64,000 bases of DNA from Candidatus Latescibacterota bacterium (GTDB lineage: Bacteria > Krumholzibacteriota > Krumholzibacteriia > WVZY01), in NCBI GenBank assembly GCA_011772205.1, contig WVZY01000029.1:1-64000 (forward strand). The letters are read 5' to 3'. Under the pieces are notes generated by a model. It was not told the origin of the DNA and made no database searches. It saw only the letters and a list, made by a program, of their open reading frames with translations. Position 1 is the stretch's first letter; each line of letters opens with the position of its first letter. A program made the translations under genes and the position numbers. Of the stretch, positions 5,773 through 17,418 are shown one piece after another.

Positions 5773-6132
5773 GGTGCCTCTATCTGCAAATGCAGTATGA
5801 TCTTCGTGCGGGGGCGCGGTAGAGGGGCGCTGAGGGAGGGGCGGTTAAAGCCGTGCACGATGCTAAGAAGCAACCACGCGCTGTCCTTCCGGCTTCCGAG
5901 AGGAATCAATGAATCGCATCATCTTCCAGGTCGAAAGCATCCTAAAGTATCTTCTGAAGACACCTCTTTAACTAATTACTAAATAACGGAATAGATAACC
6001 ATTCCTCTGTACCCTGCAAGCTCAAGACTCTTGTGCTGCATCAAGTCATGTGTTAGTTTGATAGCAAGAGTGATTCCGGCGCCTGCGCCTGCCAGGAATA
6101 TCCGGCGCAAGCCCGAATGCTCCCTGTTGCCT
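5773..6132 (+). other. 360-base spacer with a possible 20-codon leader ORF
   Basis: No recognisable gene lies here. A short ORF at 5909-5971 starts with ATG after a GAGAGGAATCA sequence resembling a ribosome-binding site and encodes MNRIIFQVESILKYLLKTPL. It has no known relative and may be chance or a leader peptide. The frame upstream of the DnaE-like start (6031-6132) stays open, but its Pro/Ala/Arg-rich translation does not look like the family. Confidence 0.25.
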
Positions 6133-9100
6133 ATGGAAAATATCCACAAAATCCCACCTTTTGTTCATCTGCGCGTTCGATCTTTTTACAGCATAGGTGA
6201 AGGGCTTTCCTCACCGGCGGAGATCTGCTCGTACGCGAGCCGGTCGGGCTATAAGAGTGTTGCGATCACGGACACCAATCACACATACGGTTTCCTGGAG
6301 TTCCACCGCGAAGCGCGCAAGCACGAGCTCAAGCCAATCTATGGAGCAGTACTGTTTCATACCACCTTGGCAACGGAAGGAGAGCAACAGTATCCGCTCA
6401 CCGCCATCGCGATTTCCAGTGAGGGATTGAGGCATCTCGTCTCTCTGGCGAGCCTTTCTCATTTATTGGTTGAAAGCGGTTCTGGGCTGGGTTCGGACCT
6501 TTTGGAACTAAACGCAGCGGGCCTTGCCATCCTCTTGGATTCTAGAAAGAGCGAACCAGCTCAGCATGTTTCCGCCGGCAATCTCGATGCGGCCGCTAAA
6601 TCCATCAAGGCGCTGAAAGCGATCTTTGGAGATCTTCTGTTTATCGAGATTCGAGAGGATGAAGATCGTGAGGATCGGGAACTGGCGAAGCAGCGTCGTG
6701 CGCTTGCCGCGGAGGCCGGCGTGAAGCCTGTGTTGACCGAGGATGTCTGCTACGTGGGAGCCGACAAGCGCGGTATTCTGGGGCTTCTTGGTGAGATACG
6801 GCACCCGAATCTAGGGAGGGACTTTTTTTCTGGGCCTGAGCTAGAAGGGGAAAAGGGTATGAAACCGGCCCCCGAAATGGCAAAGCGCTATTACGCATAC
6901 CACGACGCCTATGAAAACGCCCTTGCCATCGACCGAATGGTACCTGGGGATCTGCTGGACGAATGGCGGTTGGATGAAGGAGAGCCGGACATCAAAGCGC
7001 CTGTCTGGCGGTTCGAAGATCCGATGAGCACGTTCCTCGACAAAGTGGTCCGGCGATTCGATCTGCATTTCCATTATTTGAGCCCGGCAGGATTGGCTAG
7101 AGGGAGAGCCATCCTGAACCAGGAAATCGAGCAGATAACACGGTTGGGCCTCGAACGACTGTTTCTTCTCTATCACGAAGTGATCACCCGGCTCCAGGAT
7201 GCGAGAATTTCACTCGGGCCCGCAACGGGTCTTGGCGTTCAGTCTCTTTGCGCGTATCTCCTCGGCATTACTTCTTTCAATCCATATCAGTTCGACGAGG
7301 GCTTTCAGCCGCTGCTCGAGCCGGCGTCCGGGCGCAGTGGGATTCTCGAAATCCAGCTCGGGAGCGAGGATCGAGAAGAAGCCGTCCAATGTTTGCGGGA
7401 TGTCTTTGATCAGCATTGCATTGCATATGTCCCGACGGTTGATCACATCACCTCGAGCCGCGCGCTCAAAATCACCGCAAAGAGCCTGGAAATCGATGAC
7501 AAAGAAGTGTCCGAAGCATTGAGAATCACCATGCAAAATCCGGGACGGTCGCTCCAATCGCTGTTCGAAGAGTCCAAGGGGCTCGGGCAAATTTATCGGC
7601 GATCCGCCAGAATACGGGAGGTTCTGTCGAAAGCCGCTGCAATCGAGGGTCTCCCCTGCGGGTTCATTCATTCGAAACGGAGCGTGGTCGTCTCTCCCAG
7701 GGCGATTCGCGAGTTTCTCGGGTATACCTTCGATAAGTCGAAGGATGAGCTGTTCGTGCAGGCAACTCGGGAAGCATTCCCGGTTGGCAACATGTACCGG
7801 ATCGATTTCACGCCTCTCGGCGCCCTCACGGTTTGTGTACGCACGGACAACGAAATCCGAAAACAAAAGTTGAAGGTACATTTATGGGACAGCTTGCCGA
7901 TCGATGACAAAGCGGTATGGGCGGACGTACAAGGCGGAAAGGCAACGGGAGTTTATCTCCTGGAAAATCCCCGCATCCAAAAGCAAACCACGGAATTTTC
8001 CCCGCAATCGATCGAGGATCTAACGCATTTTCTCGCGCTCATGCGCTTGCGGGATGAAGAGAAGACTTTTTCAGAGCGCTTGGAGGCGTTTCAATCGGGA
8101 ACGGAAGCGGACTACGATTACATGCCGGATCTCGTGCCGTTATTGAACAAGACGCACGGAGCGATTCTCTATGAAGAGCAGCTGCGCGACCTCCTCTCAA
8201 TGCTCACCGGAGTGAGTGCCGAAGGGGCGTACCGAATGTTGGACCATTTTCGGACCGGTGATCCGGGCGTGCTCTCGAACCTTCGCAGAGATTTCATGAG
8301 CGGAACGGCGGATCAGGATGTCCCTATGGAAGCGGCAAACGAATGGTTCGAAAAGATTCTTTATTATTCGGACAGGGTGCTCAACCGGCAGCGGATACTG
8401 GCTGATGCGCTCCTCGTCTATAAGGCGTATTATTTAAAGCATCACCATCCGTTCCATTATTATCTGTCCCTTTTGAATACGTACTGGAACAACGAGACAA
8501 AGGTGAAGAACTATCTCGCCTACCTTCACGATCTCGATGCGCTGCTTCCGATTGACATCAACCGGAGCGAACTCTATTTCACGCTCGAGAACGGTAAAAT
8601 CCGGTTAGGCTTCTATATGGTGGAGGGTGTGAGTTATCCCTCGGTCCTCAGGATCTTGAAAGCGCGGGGCCGCCGAAAGTATCGATCATTGGAGAACTTT
8701 ATCCGGCGCACCAAAGGAAAAGGTGTTTCCGTGGAGGAAGTGGGCCGGCTGATCCTCGTCGGGGCATTCGATTTCACGGGAATATCGAGAACCAATCTGG
8801 TGAATGCGCTGCCAGAGCTTTACGAGCAGCCCGTAAACGGCGCCACGCGTGGTTTGAACGGCCAGTATGAAATGCAGCTCAGTTTTCCTCCAGTATCAGA
8901 GGATACGCAAGGTGAGGAAAAGGAAGCGCTGTTCGAGAGGCTGATAAAGGGGAAACAGGATCAGGCTGCCTCGGGTGGAGCGGAAGTCTACGATGTCGTC
9001 TCGTCTCTCGACCAGTTTTACTCCAAACCTATCGCCTCCCAGGTGGAGATTGACGGGCGGATCAGCAATCTTCAGCGGTTGAAAACGAAATCCGGACGGG

Positions 9101-9342
9101 TTCTGGGCTTCTTTATCCTTTACGATGTAAGCGCGCTCGTTCAGATCTACGTGCCGTGGGATCGTTTCGGGCTCTTCGGTGAAATTTTGGAAGAGGGAAG
9201 GGATGTCATCGTGAGGGGCCGGGTGACGGTTCGCGATGAGAGGAAGGTGTGCGAGGCGACGGAAATCAAATCTGTTGGAGAAGAAGCGGACGAAGAAGAG
9301 GGGGATTTGGGCGGCGAAGAGAAGGCGGAAGAAGACACGTAG
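6133..9342 (+). CDS. DnaE-like DNA polymerase III alpha paralog, apparently catalytically dead
   Basis: About 1069 residues with the order of a replicative DnaE: PHP domain, polymerase palm, fingers, helix-hairpin-helix region, OB fold (VEIDGRISNLQRLKTKSG) and an acidic tail. The start is taken at ATG 6133 because family similarity begins at FVHLRVRSFYSIGEG. Key residues are gone. The PHP metal motif reads HLRVRS and AITDTNHTYG. The palm motif that should carry PD(F)DxDF, after GPATGLGVQSLCAYLLG, reads SGILEIQLG (about residue 401-410), so both catalytic aspartates are lost. A third aspartate may survive in RIDFTPLG. The reading frame is intact over 3.2 kb, which argues for selection for a non-polymerase role. 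Partners and function are unknown. Confidence 0.85.
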   Translation: MENIHKIPPFVHLRVRSFYSIGEGLSSPAEICSYASRSGYKSVAITDTNHTYGFLEFHREARKHELKPIYGAVLFHTTLATEGEQQYPLTAIAISSEGLRHLVSLASLSHLLVESGSGLGSDLLELNAAGLAILLDSRKSEPAQHVSAGNLDAAAKSIKALKAIFGDLLFIEIREDEDREDRELAKQRRALAAEAGVKPVLTEDVCYVGADKRGILGLLGEIRHPNLGRDFFSGPELEGEKGMKPAPEMAKRYYAYHDAYENALAIDRMVPGDLLDEWRLDEGEPDIKAPVWRFEDPMSTFLDKVVRRFDLHFHYLSPAGLARGRAILNQEIEQITRLGLERLFLLYHEVITRLQDARISLGPATGLGVQSLCAYLLGITSFNPYQFDEGFQPLLEPASGRSGILEIQLGSEDREEAVQCLRDVFDQHCIAYVPTVDHITSSRALKITAKSLEIDDKEVSEALRITMQNPGRSLQSLFEESKGLGQIYRRSARIREVLSKAAAIEGLPCGFIHSKRSVVVSPRAIREFLGYTFDKSKDELFVQATREAFPVGNMYRIDFTPLGALTVCVRTDNEIRKQKLKVHLWDSLPIDDKAVWADVQGGKATGVYLLENPRIQKQTTEFSPQSIEDLTHFLALMRLRDEEKTFSERLEAFQSGTEADYDYMPDLVPLLNKTHGAILYEEQLRDLLSMLTGVSAEGAYRMLDHFRTGDPGVLSNLRRDFMSGTADQDVPMEAANEWFEKILYYSDRVLNRQRILADALLVYKAYYLKHHHPFHYYLSLLNTYWNNETKVKNYLAYLHDLDALLPIDINRSELYFTLENGKIRLGFYMVEGVSYPSVLRILKARGRRKYRSLENFIRRTKGKGVSVEEVGRLILVGAFDFTGISRTNLVNALPELYEQPVNGATRGLNGQYEMQLSFPPVSEDTQGEEKEALFERLIKGKQDQAASGGAEVYDVVSSLDQFYSKPIASQVEIDGRISNLQRLKTKSGRVLGFFILYDVSALVQIYVPWDRFGLFGEILEEGRDVIVRGRVTVRDERKVCEATEIKSVGEEADEEEGDLGGEEKAEEDT

Positions 9343-9418
9343 AGGGCACGTTTACCTGCTTGGCAAGGGGCTCATCTTGTCATTGGGAGGGCGCCTGGTT
9401 TGCGCCTATTGTGAGGCG

Positions 9419-9435
9419 GCCCAAGTGGGCTTTTT
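9419..9435 (+). terminator. Short rho-independent terminator after the DnaE-like gene
   Basis: GCCC-AAGT-GGGC followed by TTTTT lies about 80 bases after the DnaE-like stop. It is a weak four-pair stem but is well placed to end that transcript before tRNA-Glu. Confidence 0.45.
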
Positions 9436-9497
9436 CGTTTGACTTTGGCCTCCAGCGTTGTTAATTGTATTAAGCCCGAATTCTCTCCTATTAAGGC

Positions 9498-9575
9498 GTC
9501 CCCATCGTCTAGTCAGGCCTAGGACACCGCCCTTTCAAGGCGGCAACACGGGTTCAAATCCCGTTGGGGACGCCA
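9498..9575 (+). tRNA. tRNA-Glu (TTC)
   Basis: A complete cloverleaf. Acceptor GTCCCCA pairs with TGGGGAC, the discriminator is G and CCA is encoded. The anticodon stem CCGCC/GGCGG encloses CTTTCAA with anticodon TTC, and the T arm has the GGTTCAAATCC loop. Its 3' end (CGTTGGGGACGCCA) is the sequence repeated through the next 29 kb, so this gene is the likely founding attachment site of the array. Confidence 0.97.
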
Positions 9576-11297: not shown

Positions 11298-11325
11298 AAG
11301 ATAAAGGGTGTTATAAAAATGTCAA
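11298..11325 (-). promoter_or_regulatory. Sigma-70 promoter of the fasciclin gene
   Basis: On the minus strand TTGACA (11325-11320) is followed after 16 bases by TATCTT (11303-11298), about 70 bases before the fasciclin start. It overlaps the first codons of the transposase fragment on the other strand. Confidence 0.6.
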
Positions 11326-11573
11326 GGACAAAAGGTGAACATTTTGTGAGCCCATGGGGCTCGCGAAGGCGCATGAGGGCGAGCCGGAAATTGAGAGTCC
11401 TCGCCCACGCCGAAGAGAATGGCAACGTCTCAAGAACCTGCAGATATTTCGGCGTTTCACGGGATACGTTTTACCGATGGAAACGAGACTACAAGCGGCT
11501 GGGGGATGAGGTAGAACATCGGAAGGAATCGAATTTCATTTGCCTTGAAAATTTGTCAGAAATCTCTTATTAG
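11319..11573 (+). pseudogene. IS481-type transposase, N-terminal HTH fragment
   Basis: 84 codons with a helix-turn-helix matching transposase N-termini: KLRVLAHAEENGNVSRTCRYFG then VSRDTFYRWKRDYKRLG, clearly like the RDTFYRLKKKF stretch of the transposase at the window start. After KRLGDEVEH the similarity stops and the frame ends; no rve core follows. It is a relic cut off next to a family A repeat, so cassette formation or recombination may have removed the rest. Confidence 0.7.
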
Positions 11574-14942: not shown

Positions 14943-14951
14943 TGACTGATC

Positions 14952-15341
14952 GTGGAAGAATACACGCAAGTTTTCAAAACGCTAAGTGATCCAACCCGTT
15001 TGAGGATCCTTCGCTTGTTACTCGATGCAGGCAAGGAACTGTGCGTTTGTGAGCTGGTCGATAGCCTCGAGGAGCCTCAGTACAACGTCTCGAAGCACGT
15101 CACTGCGATGCGATCAGCCGGGCTCCTGAAGAGCCGCAAAGAAGGCCGCTGGGTGTATTACTCTCCGCAGAGTGCCGACGGGGAGTTTCTGAAACTGCTC
15201 TCTCGGGCGGTGGCGGCAATTCCTGAACGGCATGTCAAGCATGACCGCGCAGAGCTCAGGAAACGACTGAAGCTGCGCGAAGGCGGGAAATGTCTTACAG
15301 GTGTGCGGAAGGAACATCTTCTGGGAAAGGTATCGAGTTGA
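14952..15341 (+). CDS. ArsR-family transcriptional regulator
   Basis: A 129-residue winged-helix repressor. FKTLSDPTRLRILRLLL and the recognition helix QYNVSKHVTAMRSAGLL are typical ArsR/SmtB. ELCVCEL contains the CxC metal(loid)-binding motif of arsenic-sensing members; another Cys lies in GGKCLTG. It starts with GTG. Its stop overlaps the TTG start of the MtrA-like gene, so it heads a four-gene operon (ArsR, MtrA-like, OB-fold protein, membrane protein), which it probably represses until a thiophilic ion is bound. Confidence 0.88.
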   Translation: MEEYTQVFKTLSDPTRLRILRLLLDAGKELCVCELVDSLEEPQYNVSKHVTAMRSAGLLKSRKEGRWVYYSPQSADGEFLKLLSRAVAAIPERHVKHDRAELRKRLKLREGGKCLTGVRKEHLLGKVSS

Positions 15342-16504
15342 AGAAGGCGTCCGCAAACGGTGCGATTCAGAACATCATCGACGAAATGCAGGCCGCGACG
15401 GCCGCAGTGAAATGCCACAAGTGTGGCTGTTTCCATGGTGCGCTGAGTGAACTCACAGAAGCATTACCCAGCATTCCTTCTGAGGCACGCGAAATTATTC
15501 AACCTGTCATCGAGACGGGTAAGAAGCACAGGATCCCGGAAGAATATGATTGCATCGGCTGTCCCGTTTGTTGGCCAGCGAACGCCCTCAACTTTGCGGC
15601 GGAGGCGTTTGCACATATCGAGTTTGGGGGTGACAGCTGTCCGACAGAGATGCCAGCGCGAGAACATAGTTGGCCACCGTTACCGGGAGACTTCACGGTT
15701 CTCGACCGTGCAGGTCACGTGGCGGTCTGCGCGCTCACATCCAAAGGGTTGGTTGAAGGTGTTGTTGAAGCGCGTCCGAGCGGCGTGGCGATTGTCGGCA
15801 CGCTGTACACGGAAAATCTGGGCATCGAGAGAATCATCACCAATGTGCTCTCCAATCCCAACATCACGACGCTCCTTATTTGCGGTGCGGACTCGGAGCA
15901 ACGGATCGGACACTTACCCGGGCAGACCTTCCTCAGCCTCTTCGAGCACGGTATCGATGAGCGAGGGCGTATCATCGATGCCAAAGGACGGCGCCCGCTC
16001 ATCAAAAACATCACACACGATACGATTGAGACGTTTCGGAAAGAGGTTCGGATTCTGGACCGAATCGGCGAAGAAGACGTTAGCGGGCTTGTGGAAGCCC
16101 TCGCGGGCATATCAGCGGATCAGGAGCCGCGCCGTGCCGAAAGACGGACCCATGACGTCCCCCGGGAGATCCACGCTCAGCCGGTTGAACGCCTCGTGCT
16201 TGACCCCAAAGGGTACTTCGTTGTTTTCCCCGACCGCGAACAGCAATCTATTCTCATCGAGCATTACCTCAACGATGGCACTTTGGCGCATGTCTTCACG
16301 GGAGAGCGTGCCGACGATCTCTACGCCACGGTGATCGCCCATGAGCTTGTCTCGCGCCTTGACCACGCTGCGTACCTCGGGAAAGAGCTGGTACGGACTG
16401 AACAGGCGCTCAGAACGGGCGAGCCTTACATCCAAGACCGAGCGCCCGAGCCGTCCTGCTGCGCGTCAGCCGGTTGCACGGGGAATCACAAAAGGGAGTC
16501 CTGA
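15338..16504 (+). CDS. MtrA-like (tetrahydromethanopterin S-methyltransferase subunit A family) protein with DUF4346 tail
   Basis: A 388-residue cytosolic protein. A Cys-rich N-terminus (KCHKCGCFHG at about 25, YDCIGCPVCW at about 75) suggests an Fe-S or zinc site. The middle resembles MtrA of methanogens (WPPLPGDFTVL, TENLGIERIITNVLSNPNI, GQTFLSLFEHGIDERGRI). The C-terminus matches DUF4346 (LDPKGYFVVFPDREQQSILI, then VSRLDHAAYLGKEL). In methanogens MtrA carries the corrinoid. Start TTG 15338 overlaps the ArsR stop by four bases and follows GGGAAAGG. Control by an ArsR-type protein suggests methyl transfer or corrinoid chemistry on a metal(loid), but this is inference. Confidence 0.72.
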   Translation: MKKASANGAIQNIIDEMQAATAAVKCHKCGCFHGALSELTEALPSIPSEAREIIQPVIETGKKHRIPEEYDCIGCPVCWPANALNFAAEAFAHIEFGGDSCPTEMPAREHSWPPLPGDFTVLDRAGHVAVCALTSKGLVEGVVEARPSGVAIVGTLYTENLGIERIITNVLSNPNITTLLICGADSEQRIGHLPGQTFLSLFEHGIDERGRIIDAKGRRPLIKNITHDTIETFRKEVRILDRIGEEDVSGLVEALAGISADQEPRRAERRTHDVPREIHAQPVERLVLDPKGYFVVFPDREQQSILIEHYLNDGTLAHVFTGERADDLYATVIAHELVSRLDHAAYLGKELVRTEQALRTGEPYIQDRAPEPSCCASAGCTGNHKRES

Positions 16505-16507
16505 TCA

Positions 16508-16903
16508 ATGACATTCGTAAGAACGGCGATCATAGTCAGTGTGGCGTTACTAGTTATTTCTGTGGTCTCACCCGTTTCAAGTTATGGTCAGAGCGATTCC
16601 ACGGTGACAGACACTCTTAACGTCGACAAGCTAGCGAAAGACCCCAAGGGATTCGCCGACCGTGAGATAACGGTTACAGGAGTGGTCGGTGCGGTTGTTC
16701 CGAAGCAAAAGCTGTTCACGATTATCGATCAGTCTGAGTATGCGGAATGCAAAGTCGTAACGTGTGCCCGGTACGAAATCCCGATTGACTTCACCGGAAA
16801 GTTGCCGGACCCGGAGCAGGTCGTCATGGTGACGGGAAAGCTGGTCCAGCCACAGCCGGGGCGCTTCCTCTTTAAGGCAAAGCGCGTGGAGATCATCAAA
16901 TGA
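16508..16903 (+). CDS. Exported OB-fold-like protein
   Basis: A 131-residue protein with a signal peptide (VALLVISVVSPVSSYG) and a small beta domain: FADREITVTGVVGAV, LFTIIDQSEYAECKV, QVVMVTGKLVQPQPG, RFLFKAKRVEII. The pattern fits the tRNA_anti-like OB fold found in periplasmic proteins. Two cysteines (AECKVVTCARY) flank a turn and might bind metal or form a disulfide. It follows the MtrA-like gene by three bases and overlaps the next gene by ATGA, so it is in the ArsR operon. Confidence 0.65.
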   Translation: MTFVRTAIIVSVALLVISVVSPVSSYGQSDSTVTDTLNVDKLAKDPKGFADREITVTGVVGAVVPKQKLFTIIDQSEYAECKVVTCARYEIPIDFTGKLPDPEQVVMVTGKLVQPQPGRFLFKAKRVEIIK

Positions 16904-17418
16904 GGCGTTCCACGTTCCTCATCTGCCTTTTTGTCTTTGCCGTCGTCTTCGCGGCGCACTTTGAGTATCACGCCTGGCAGGAGGCCCGGGTGGCGTCCCA
17001 GTGGGTAGCGCTGGATTCTGTGGAAAGACCTTCGGCGTGGGCACGTTACGCAGAACGACAAGATTTCTACCTTGGTTACTCCTATGCGCTTGCCGCGGCC
17101 TTCACAGTTTTTGCCGTGCTGTTCAGCCTTCAGCAGCGTCGTCGCGAGGTGGGAGGTATCCTGGGCGGCGTCACTCTTATCGGCGGGCTCTACGCCGCCG
17201 GGTGCTTCCTCATCGGTTGCTGCGGATCACCTATGCTCGTCGTTTATCTGTCGCTATTCGGATCTTCATTTCTGGGCGTCATCAAACCGATCGTCGCGGG
17301 GATCACGACCGTTTCGATCGCCCTCAGCAGTTTCTATATCATTCGCAGATCCAGACGCGCATGTTGTCCGCCGGTAGTTGATGGCGAACGGGTCTCGCCT
17401 GCTCGCAATGCGAGGTAG
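16900..17418 (+). CDS. Four-TM membrane protein with Cys-rich helix
   Basis: A 172-residue integral membrane protein with four predicted helices: an N-terminal FLICLFVFAVVFAAHF, then segments around YALAAAFTVFAVLF, LIGGLYAAGCFLIGCCGSPML and VAGITTVSIALSSFYI. The third helix carries a GC...GCCG cluster, a possible metal or thiol site in the membrane, and RRACCPP ends the protein. It overlaps the OB-fold gene by four bases, so both are translated together. The family is not recognised; by context it may move or sense the ion detected by the ArsR protein. Confidence 0.6.
   Translation: MRRSTFLICLFVFAVVFAAHFEYHAWQEARVASQWVALDSVERPSAWARYAERQDFYLGYSYALAAAFTVFAVLFSLQQRRREVGGILGGVTLIGGLYAAGCFLIGCCGSPMLVVYLSLFGSSFLGVIKPIVAGITTVSIALSSFYIIRRSRRACCPPVVDGERVSPARNAR

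Follow-up and report, generated by a model that had tools for sequence, protein, structure and literature searches.

What keeps a full-length DnaE intact when its catalytic residues are gone? An open reading frame in the window (the whole stretch of 64,000 nucleotides that was analyzed) raises this question. The initial annotation described it as a DnaE paralog with recognizable PHP, palm, fingers, HhH and OB regions but without the polymerase aspartates, kept by selection for another role. The 1069-codon frame was indeed intact from the ATG at 6133, and a TTG at 6031 is a possible earlier start. Its features are as follows.

6133 to 9342, forward strand: predicted catalytically dead dnaE paralog, 1069 aa, intact frame from ATG 6133
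6166 to 6654, forward strand: PHP domain, residues 12–174, with the degraded metal motif HLRVRS (Pfam PF02811)
7111 to 7806, forward strand: palm/thumb region DNA_pol3_alpha, residues 327–558 (Pfam PF07733)
7216 to 7245, forward strand: GPATGLGVQS in place of GPGRGSGAGS, positions R362, G363 and S364 lost (alignment to E. coli DnaE)
7339 to 7362, forward strand: GILEIQLG in place of PDFDVDFC, with D401 replaced by I, D403 by E and D405 by Q (alignment to E. coli DnaE)
7804 to 7806, forward strand: Asp558, matching E. coli D555 as third catalytic Asp, kept in YRIDF, with the neighboring K553 replaced by R (alignments)
8542 to 8796, forward strand: helix-hairpin-helix HHH_6, residues 804–888 (Pfam PF14579)
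8863 to 8880, forward strand: QYEMQL, a weak clamp-like hexapeptide at the position of QLELPF/QMELPF in relatives (alignment)
9043 to 9270, forward strand: OB fold, residues 971–1046 (Pfam PF01336)

The PHP, DNA_pol3_alpha, finger and HhH_6 regions exceeded the Pfam cut-offs and the OB region did so by a slight margin, so the regions named initially were recovered, the OB fold marginally. PHP, DNA_pol3_alpha, finger and HhH followed one another in the order of the C-family DNA polymerase fold (DnaE/PolC). By score the protein is a DnaE homolog, yet it reached 358 bits against TIGR00594 (curated cut-off, 434) and 369 bits against PRK05673 (curated NCBIfam cut-off, 1002 bits). The best structural matches of its AF2 model (pLDDT 76, pTM 0.67) were DnaE structures (7pu7, E 8e-53; 2hnh, TM 0.79 by target length).

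Alignment with E. coli DnaE set GILEIQLG exactly on PDFDVDFC, as first read. D401 and D403 were lost and D555 was retained, so the claim that the polymerase aspartates are absent holds for two of the three, and the set D401, D403 and D555 of a functional polymerase is incomplete. No catalytic aspartates were found elsewhere in the aligned core. The protein also lacked R362, S364, R390, R396, H511, K553, R709/R710 and H760, which were invariant in the compared active DnaEs; the arginines of the fingers were among the losses. In the PHP domain, the nine metal residues read RRETVPDDC instead of HHDHEHHDH. The degradation noticed as HLRVRS thus extended to almost the entire motif, and the proofreading exonuclease motif HHDHEH[C/H]DH was not present; relatives in families f4 and f8 keep 5–7 of its 9 residues. 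Two further DnaEs with intact motifs are encoded in the genome. One is a DnaE1 whose catalytic and PHP motifs are complete; the other is a DnaE2-type polymerase that has PDFDLDF as well as the third Asp. The dead protein is therefore not the only DnaE. Motif misalignment was ruled out because the loss extends over numerous invariant positions and is shared by orthologs, and sequencing or assembly error because the same loss occurs in many independent genomes. The alignments and the model confirmed that 6133–9342 encodes an intact protein of predicted DnaE fold without the catalytic residues.

The catalytic residues were lost in all three dead subgroups and fully conserved in the active C-family proteins compared. 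Dead proteins of f4 and f8, of about 920 aa, lost all three aspartates. The two f3 proteins kept GPGRG, with D401 replaced by E and D555 by His. An acidic residue occupied position 403 throughout, and D555 was kept in f1 and f2, which might suggest that the protein still polymerizes through an unusual metal site, made of D555 and E403 or of acidic residues elsewhere. We consider this very improbable indeed, given the fate of D555 in f3, f4 and f8 and the disappearance of the dNTP/phosphate-binding residues R362, K553, H511 and R709/R710 from both f1/f2 and f4/f8.

Orthologs with the same loss were searched in 80 genomes of the phylum, apparently Krumholzibacteriota (phylum and class coincide in this sample); most of the genomes were metagenome-assembled. 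Of the 34 genomes in five families, 30 had a dead DnaE (f1, 5/6; f2, 1/1; f3, 2/2; f4, 17/20; f8, 5/5), against 0 of 46 in the three others (f5, 0/4; f6, 0/38; f7, 0/4). The 30 positives include five partial or split copies (G005, G006, G026, G039 and G058). The break in the G005 ortholog (L216 10235–12430) coincides with a stretch of N in the assembly and is no proven mutation. The closest orthologs of the window protein were those of G001, G004 and G002 (49%, 42% and 40% identity, respectively), all sharing the loss, as did the more distant ones of G005 and G006.

In a maximum-likelihood tree of 47 sequences, all 16 dead sequences fell on one side of a branch with support 96/93, and the same split was obtained without the palm region (90/53). 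In this tree, read as unrooted, the dead clade stood apart from DnaE1, DnaE2A and DnaE2B. Long-branch effects are possible in this tree, so gene order was used as additional support.

Beyond the 80 genomes, a contig scan with the window protein alone gave no match. A pattern scan with the f4/f8 alignment served as the search outside the phylum and reaches f4/f8-like members only. Apart from the named relatives, its matches were ordinary active DnaEs. The relatives were labeled Candidatus Krumholzibacteriota/Krumholzibacteriia and some Latescibacterota. One contig (L073) labeled candidate division WOR-3 carried dead DnaE residues 1–721 with 100% identity to G028; it is probably mislabeled or contaminated. 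Plasmid and phage collections contained only matches of 21–26% identity to the window protein. With these matches and vertical synteny, a plasmid or phage origin was set aside.

The gene order concerned two features downstream of the frame.

9343 to 9497, no strand: gap between the dead dnaE and tRNA-Glu, the site of lexA in seven relatives (tblastn, relatives)
9498 to 9575, forward strand: tRNA-Glu (ttc), the downstream anchor (ARAGORN, relatives)

The initial annotation placed the frame just upstream of a tRNA-anchored array. The tRNA is real, but it is the gene's own conserved anchor across families and not the sign of an integrated array: of the 24 loci whose sequence continues past the dead dnaE, 23 had tRNA-Glu(ttc) there, among them the window, and each of the five families was represented. 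Upstream, tRNA-Lys(ttt) was found in seven loci (f1 G001, f2, f3 and f8); still farther upstream, the f2, f3 and f8 loci also carry purA. This common order of tRNA-Glu, tRNA-Lys and purA indicated one origin and vertical descent of the dead dnaE. In f5 and f7, an active-type Y-family polymerase gene and lexA precede the same tRNA-Glu(ttc) anchor (L205 7486–10265 and L208 244–4340), so the locus looks like an SOS polymerase slot. In L208, an extra 459-aa ORF without a Pfam match lies between these two genes.

Other neighbors were less regular. A gene for a GAF plus PP2C-type phosphatase protein lies divergently upstream of the dead dnaE at L053 10782–12125 and in eight other f4 loci. In the window, two ORFs of one family (36–878 and 11319–11570) flank the dead dnaE region, the longer being transposase-like, with a helix-turn-helix and integrase-type sequence. 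An ArsR-like gene and the next three genes (14946–17415) showed 79–94% protein identity to G002:C393, where they lie near a lexA. This exceeds the approximately 72% of DnaE1, and the block may be mobile, possibly a recent transfer, so this synteny was set aside.

Close pairs of dead DnaEs gave dN/dS values of 0.06–0.17 (pairwise, Nei–Gojobori), and the window copy against G001 gave approximately 0.15 with dS saturated. Together with intact frames in many genomes and class-wide orthologs at one locus, these values argue well for the selection for a non-synthetic role that had been proposed, and the comparisons showed a conserved family maintained under purifying selection. The dead protein evolves faster than DnaE1 (mean identity of 44% versus 72% in the same three f1 genomes).

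The conserved parts differed from those of an active polymerase. In f4/f8 dead proteins, PHP and fingers were the most conserved (52% identity), and palm and thumb, the HhH region aside, the least (38%); the palm/thumb of DnaE1 stood at 67%. This pattern, and five PHP metal positions kept in the f4/f8 group, would fit a protein whose polymerase part is vestigial and in which another domain works, for example a PHP domain remodeled as a nuclease or phosphatase or used as a protein-docking surface. However, hardly any PHP metal residues remain in the clade of the window and only a minority in f3, which makes a shared PHP enzyme activity unlikely. A PHP enzyme is thus weak as a general function, and we regard this whole explanation as improbable.

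A link to the SOS response came from the genes next to the dead dnaE. In seven genomes (G001 of f1, G006 of f2, G007 and G012 of f3, and G028, G035 and G047 of f4), lexA lay directly downstream, overlapping or nearly so, and both LexA proteins scanned contained Pfam LexA_DNA_bind and Peptidase_S24. A palindromic LexA-operator-like box between −35-like and −10-like elements was common to seven dead dnaE promoters; in the G028 promoter it reads TTGATAgCTATACATTTGTATAGTACTAT. The information of the box was 20.2 bits versus 12.9 ± 0.44 in 100 randomized sets. Its strict core ACAWWYGTNTAGTA occurred exactly once per genome in seven genomes, each time before the dead dnaE, and the G001 box was a diverged copy, GCATACATACATATGTATGC. 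The LexA of the dead dnaE–lexA operon may act mainly, or even solely, on that operon. The gene is thus a predicted LexA regulon member in G001 and several f4 relatives but not in the window. As comparative evidence, these operons and boxes showed an SOS-linked origin of the family.

In the window, tblastn with five LexA proteins found no lexA remnant in the 155 nt between the dead dnaE and tRNA-Glu, and neither LexA operator type was found before the dead dnaE. The single LexA of this genome belongs to a different subgroup and is encoded at a second SOS locus (G000:C77:104840–114210, L160), near an active DnaE2-type polymerase gene and a Y-family polymerase gene; at this locus, lexA and the Y-family gene have TTTCGGTTTnnTTTCGG-type boxes upstream. 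A third exact LexA2-type box was seen at G000:C53:11690–11706 (L194, about 2691), approximately 330 nt before a 176-aa ORF. Many f4 genomes likewise cluster LexA, Y-family polymerase and active DnaE2-type genes at a second SOS locus, in f4/f8 in the order lexA, Y-family polymerase, DnaE2-type. Judged by these comparisons, the window's own genome has lost the lexA link and is derived in this respect. Many f4 members and all f8 members likewise had neither an adjacent lexA nor the box; the gene can therefore be retained without SOS control.

The lost regulatory elements could also mean slow decay of a once-useful SOS polymerase, with the window copy heading toward a pseudogene. The faster evolution relative to DnaE1 and the absence of the gene from a few f1 and f4 genomes agree with this. 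Decay is decidedly improbable, however, since frames remain full-length at 40–50% protein divergence under the low dN/dS values given above, and still open although the catalytic loss is older than the divergence of several families.

The retained clamp motifs suggested what the protein may do instead. Proteins of f4 and f8 end in QLSLF-type motifs (including QLSFF), with Q and F invariant in 15 aligned sequences, and f1, f2 and f3 members have QLELPF, QMELPF, QMNMTF or QLELGF, either at their end or following HhH. A motif of the form QxxLF or QLxLxF toward the C-terminus was clear in relatives, and the proposed clamp binding finds its motif there, but the window copy has only the weak QYEMQL.

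Our best reading, to which we give a probability of roughly 0.4, is an ancient SOS-controlled C-family pseudo-polymerase that binds the clamp and perhaps primed DNA without synthesis and manages polymerase access. An ancient DnaE paralog of the phylum would have lost nucleotide addition and been maintained by selection. In its likely original setting, the gene heads an operon that it shares with lexA and that LexA autoregulates, and it is presumably expressed upon DNA damage. Through its kept DnaE architecture, the protein would dock on the beta clamp, and it might also engage primed or stalled DNA, a binding assumed from the fold. Seated where the replicative alpha subunit normally acts, and adding no nucleotides, it would hold back or slow the fork and determine which polymerase reaches the clamp. 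We infer such induction, binding and braking or exchange from the locus, the motifs and the fold, together suggesting a DnaE repurposed to manage replication after DNA damage. In its most specific form, a dead alpha subunit from the LexA operon that occupies the clamp and the primer terminus, stops replication at damage and gates polymerase exchange, we think the proposal unlikely.

A clamp motif and an SOS-type locus would also suit a mutasome scaffold, one of the roles first suggested, in which an active translesion polymerase (Y-family or DnaE2-type) would be brought to the clamp by the dead DnaE. Such a scaffold would be the mirror image of ImuB, a dead Y-family protein that recruits an active DnaE2. 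The active Y-family polymerase at the same anchor in sister families and the gene clusters at the second SOS locus point the same way, but that locus is not adjacent to the dead dnaE, and no partner was obligatory. G017 (97% complete, 2 contigs) has a dead DnaE, with no DnaE2-type gene detected and no LexA match, and G035, G047 and G055, all with a dead DnaE, gave no match for a Y-family polymerase. Incomplete genomes limit this argument from absent partners. The partner present throughout was the ordinary replisome. The lack of a fixed partner and the constant presence of the replisome favor action on the clamp, DNA and replisome over a dedicated scaffold, which is possible but on the unlikely side.

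If the most specific form of the pseudo-polymerase proposal is true, bacteria have a damage-induced replication brake made from the replicase itself. A 2013 survey, which admitted only sequences with intact active sites, described D401, D403 and D555 as absolutely conserved in the C family (PMC3919608). The dead clade is an old, class-wide, selected and LexA-tied exception. The passages of a 2026 survey that describe inactive Y-family groups and DnaE2 modules make no mention of an inactive C-family group (PMC12926913), and our literature search for inactive DnaE families yielded no C-family counterpart. The dead clade suggests that damage-response pseudo-polymerases are not confined to the Y family. 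It also offers a direct way to ask which replicase parts serve non-synthetic functions, and it cautions that a protein annotated automatically as "DnaE" may be incapable of DNA synthesis.

Among known systems, ImuB is similar in being a catalytically dead member of a polymerase family with a clamp-binding motif, and in its LexA control and cassettes that include lexA (PMC3919608, PMC12926913, PMC10421592). It differs in that ImuB belongs to the Y family and needs DnaE2, whereas the dead DnaE belongs to the C family and has no fixed partner gene. The error-prone DnaE2 (DnaE2A/DnaE2B) is likewise a non-replicative DnaE paralog with a degraded PHP site and with lexA and/or Y-family genes nearby, but it keeps the catalytic aspartates, and the dead clade lies outside DnaE2A, DnaE2B and DnaE1 in the tree. 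Inactivated archaeal B-family polymerases and the inactive half of eukaryotic Pol epsilon are conserved dead modules with structural roles. These belong to another polymerase family and are not known to be encoded in damage-inducible operons. With DnaE1 (Pol III alpha), the dead DnaE shares the order PHP–palm–thumb–fingers–HhH, the OB fold in some members and the clamp motif after HhH; it differs in lacking the catalytic site and in scoring below the curated DnaE cut-offs, and an intact DnaE1 is encoded separately in the same genome.
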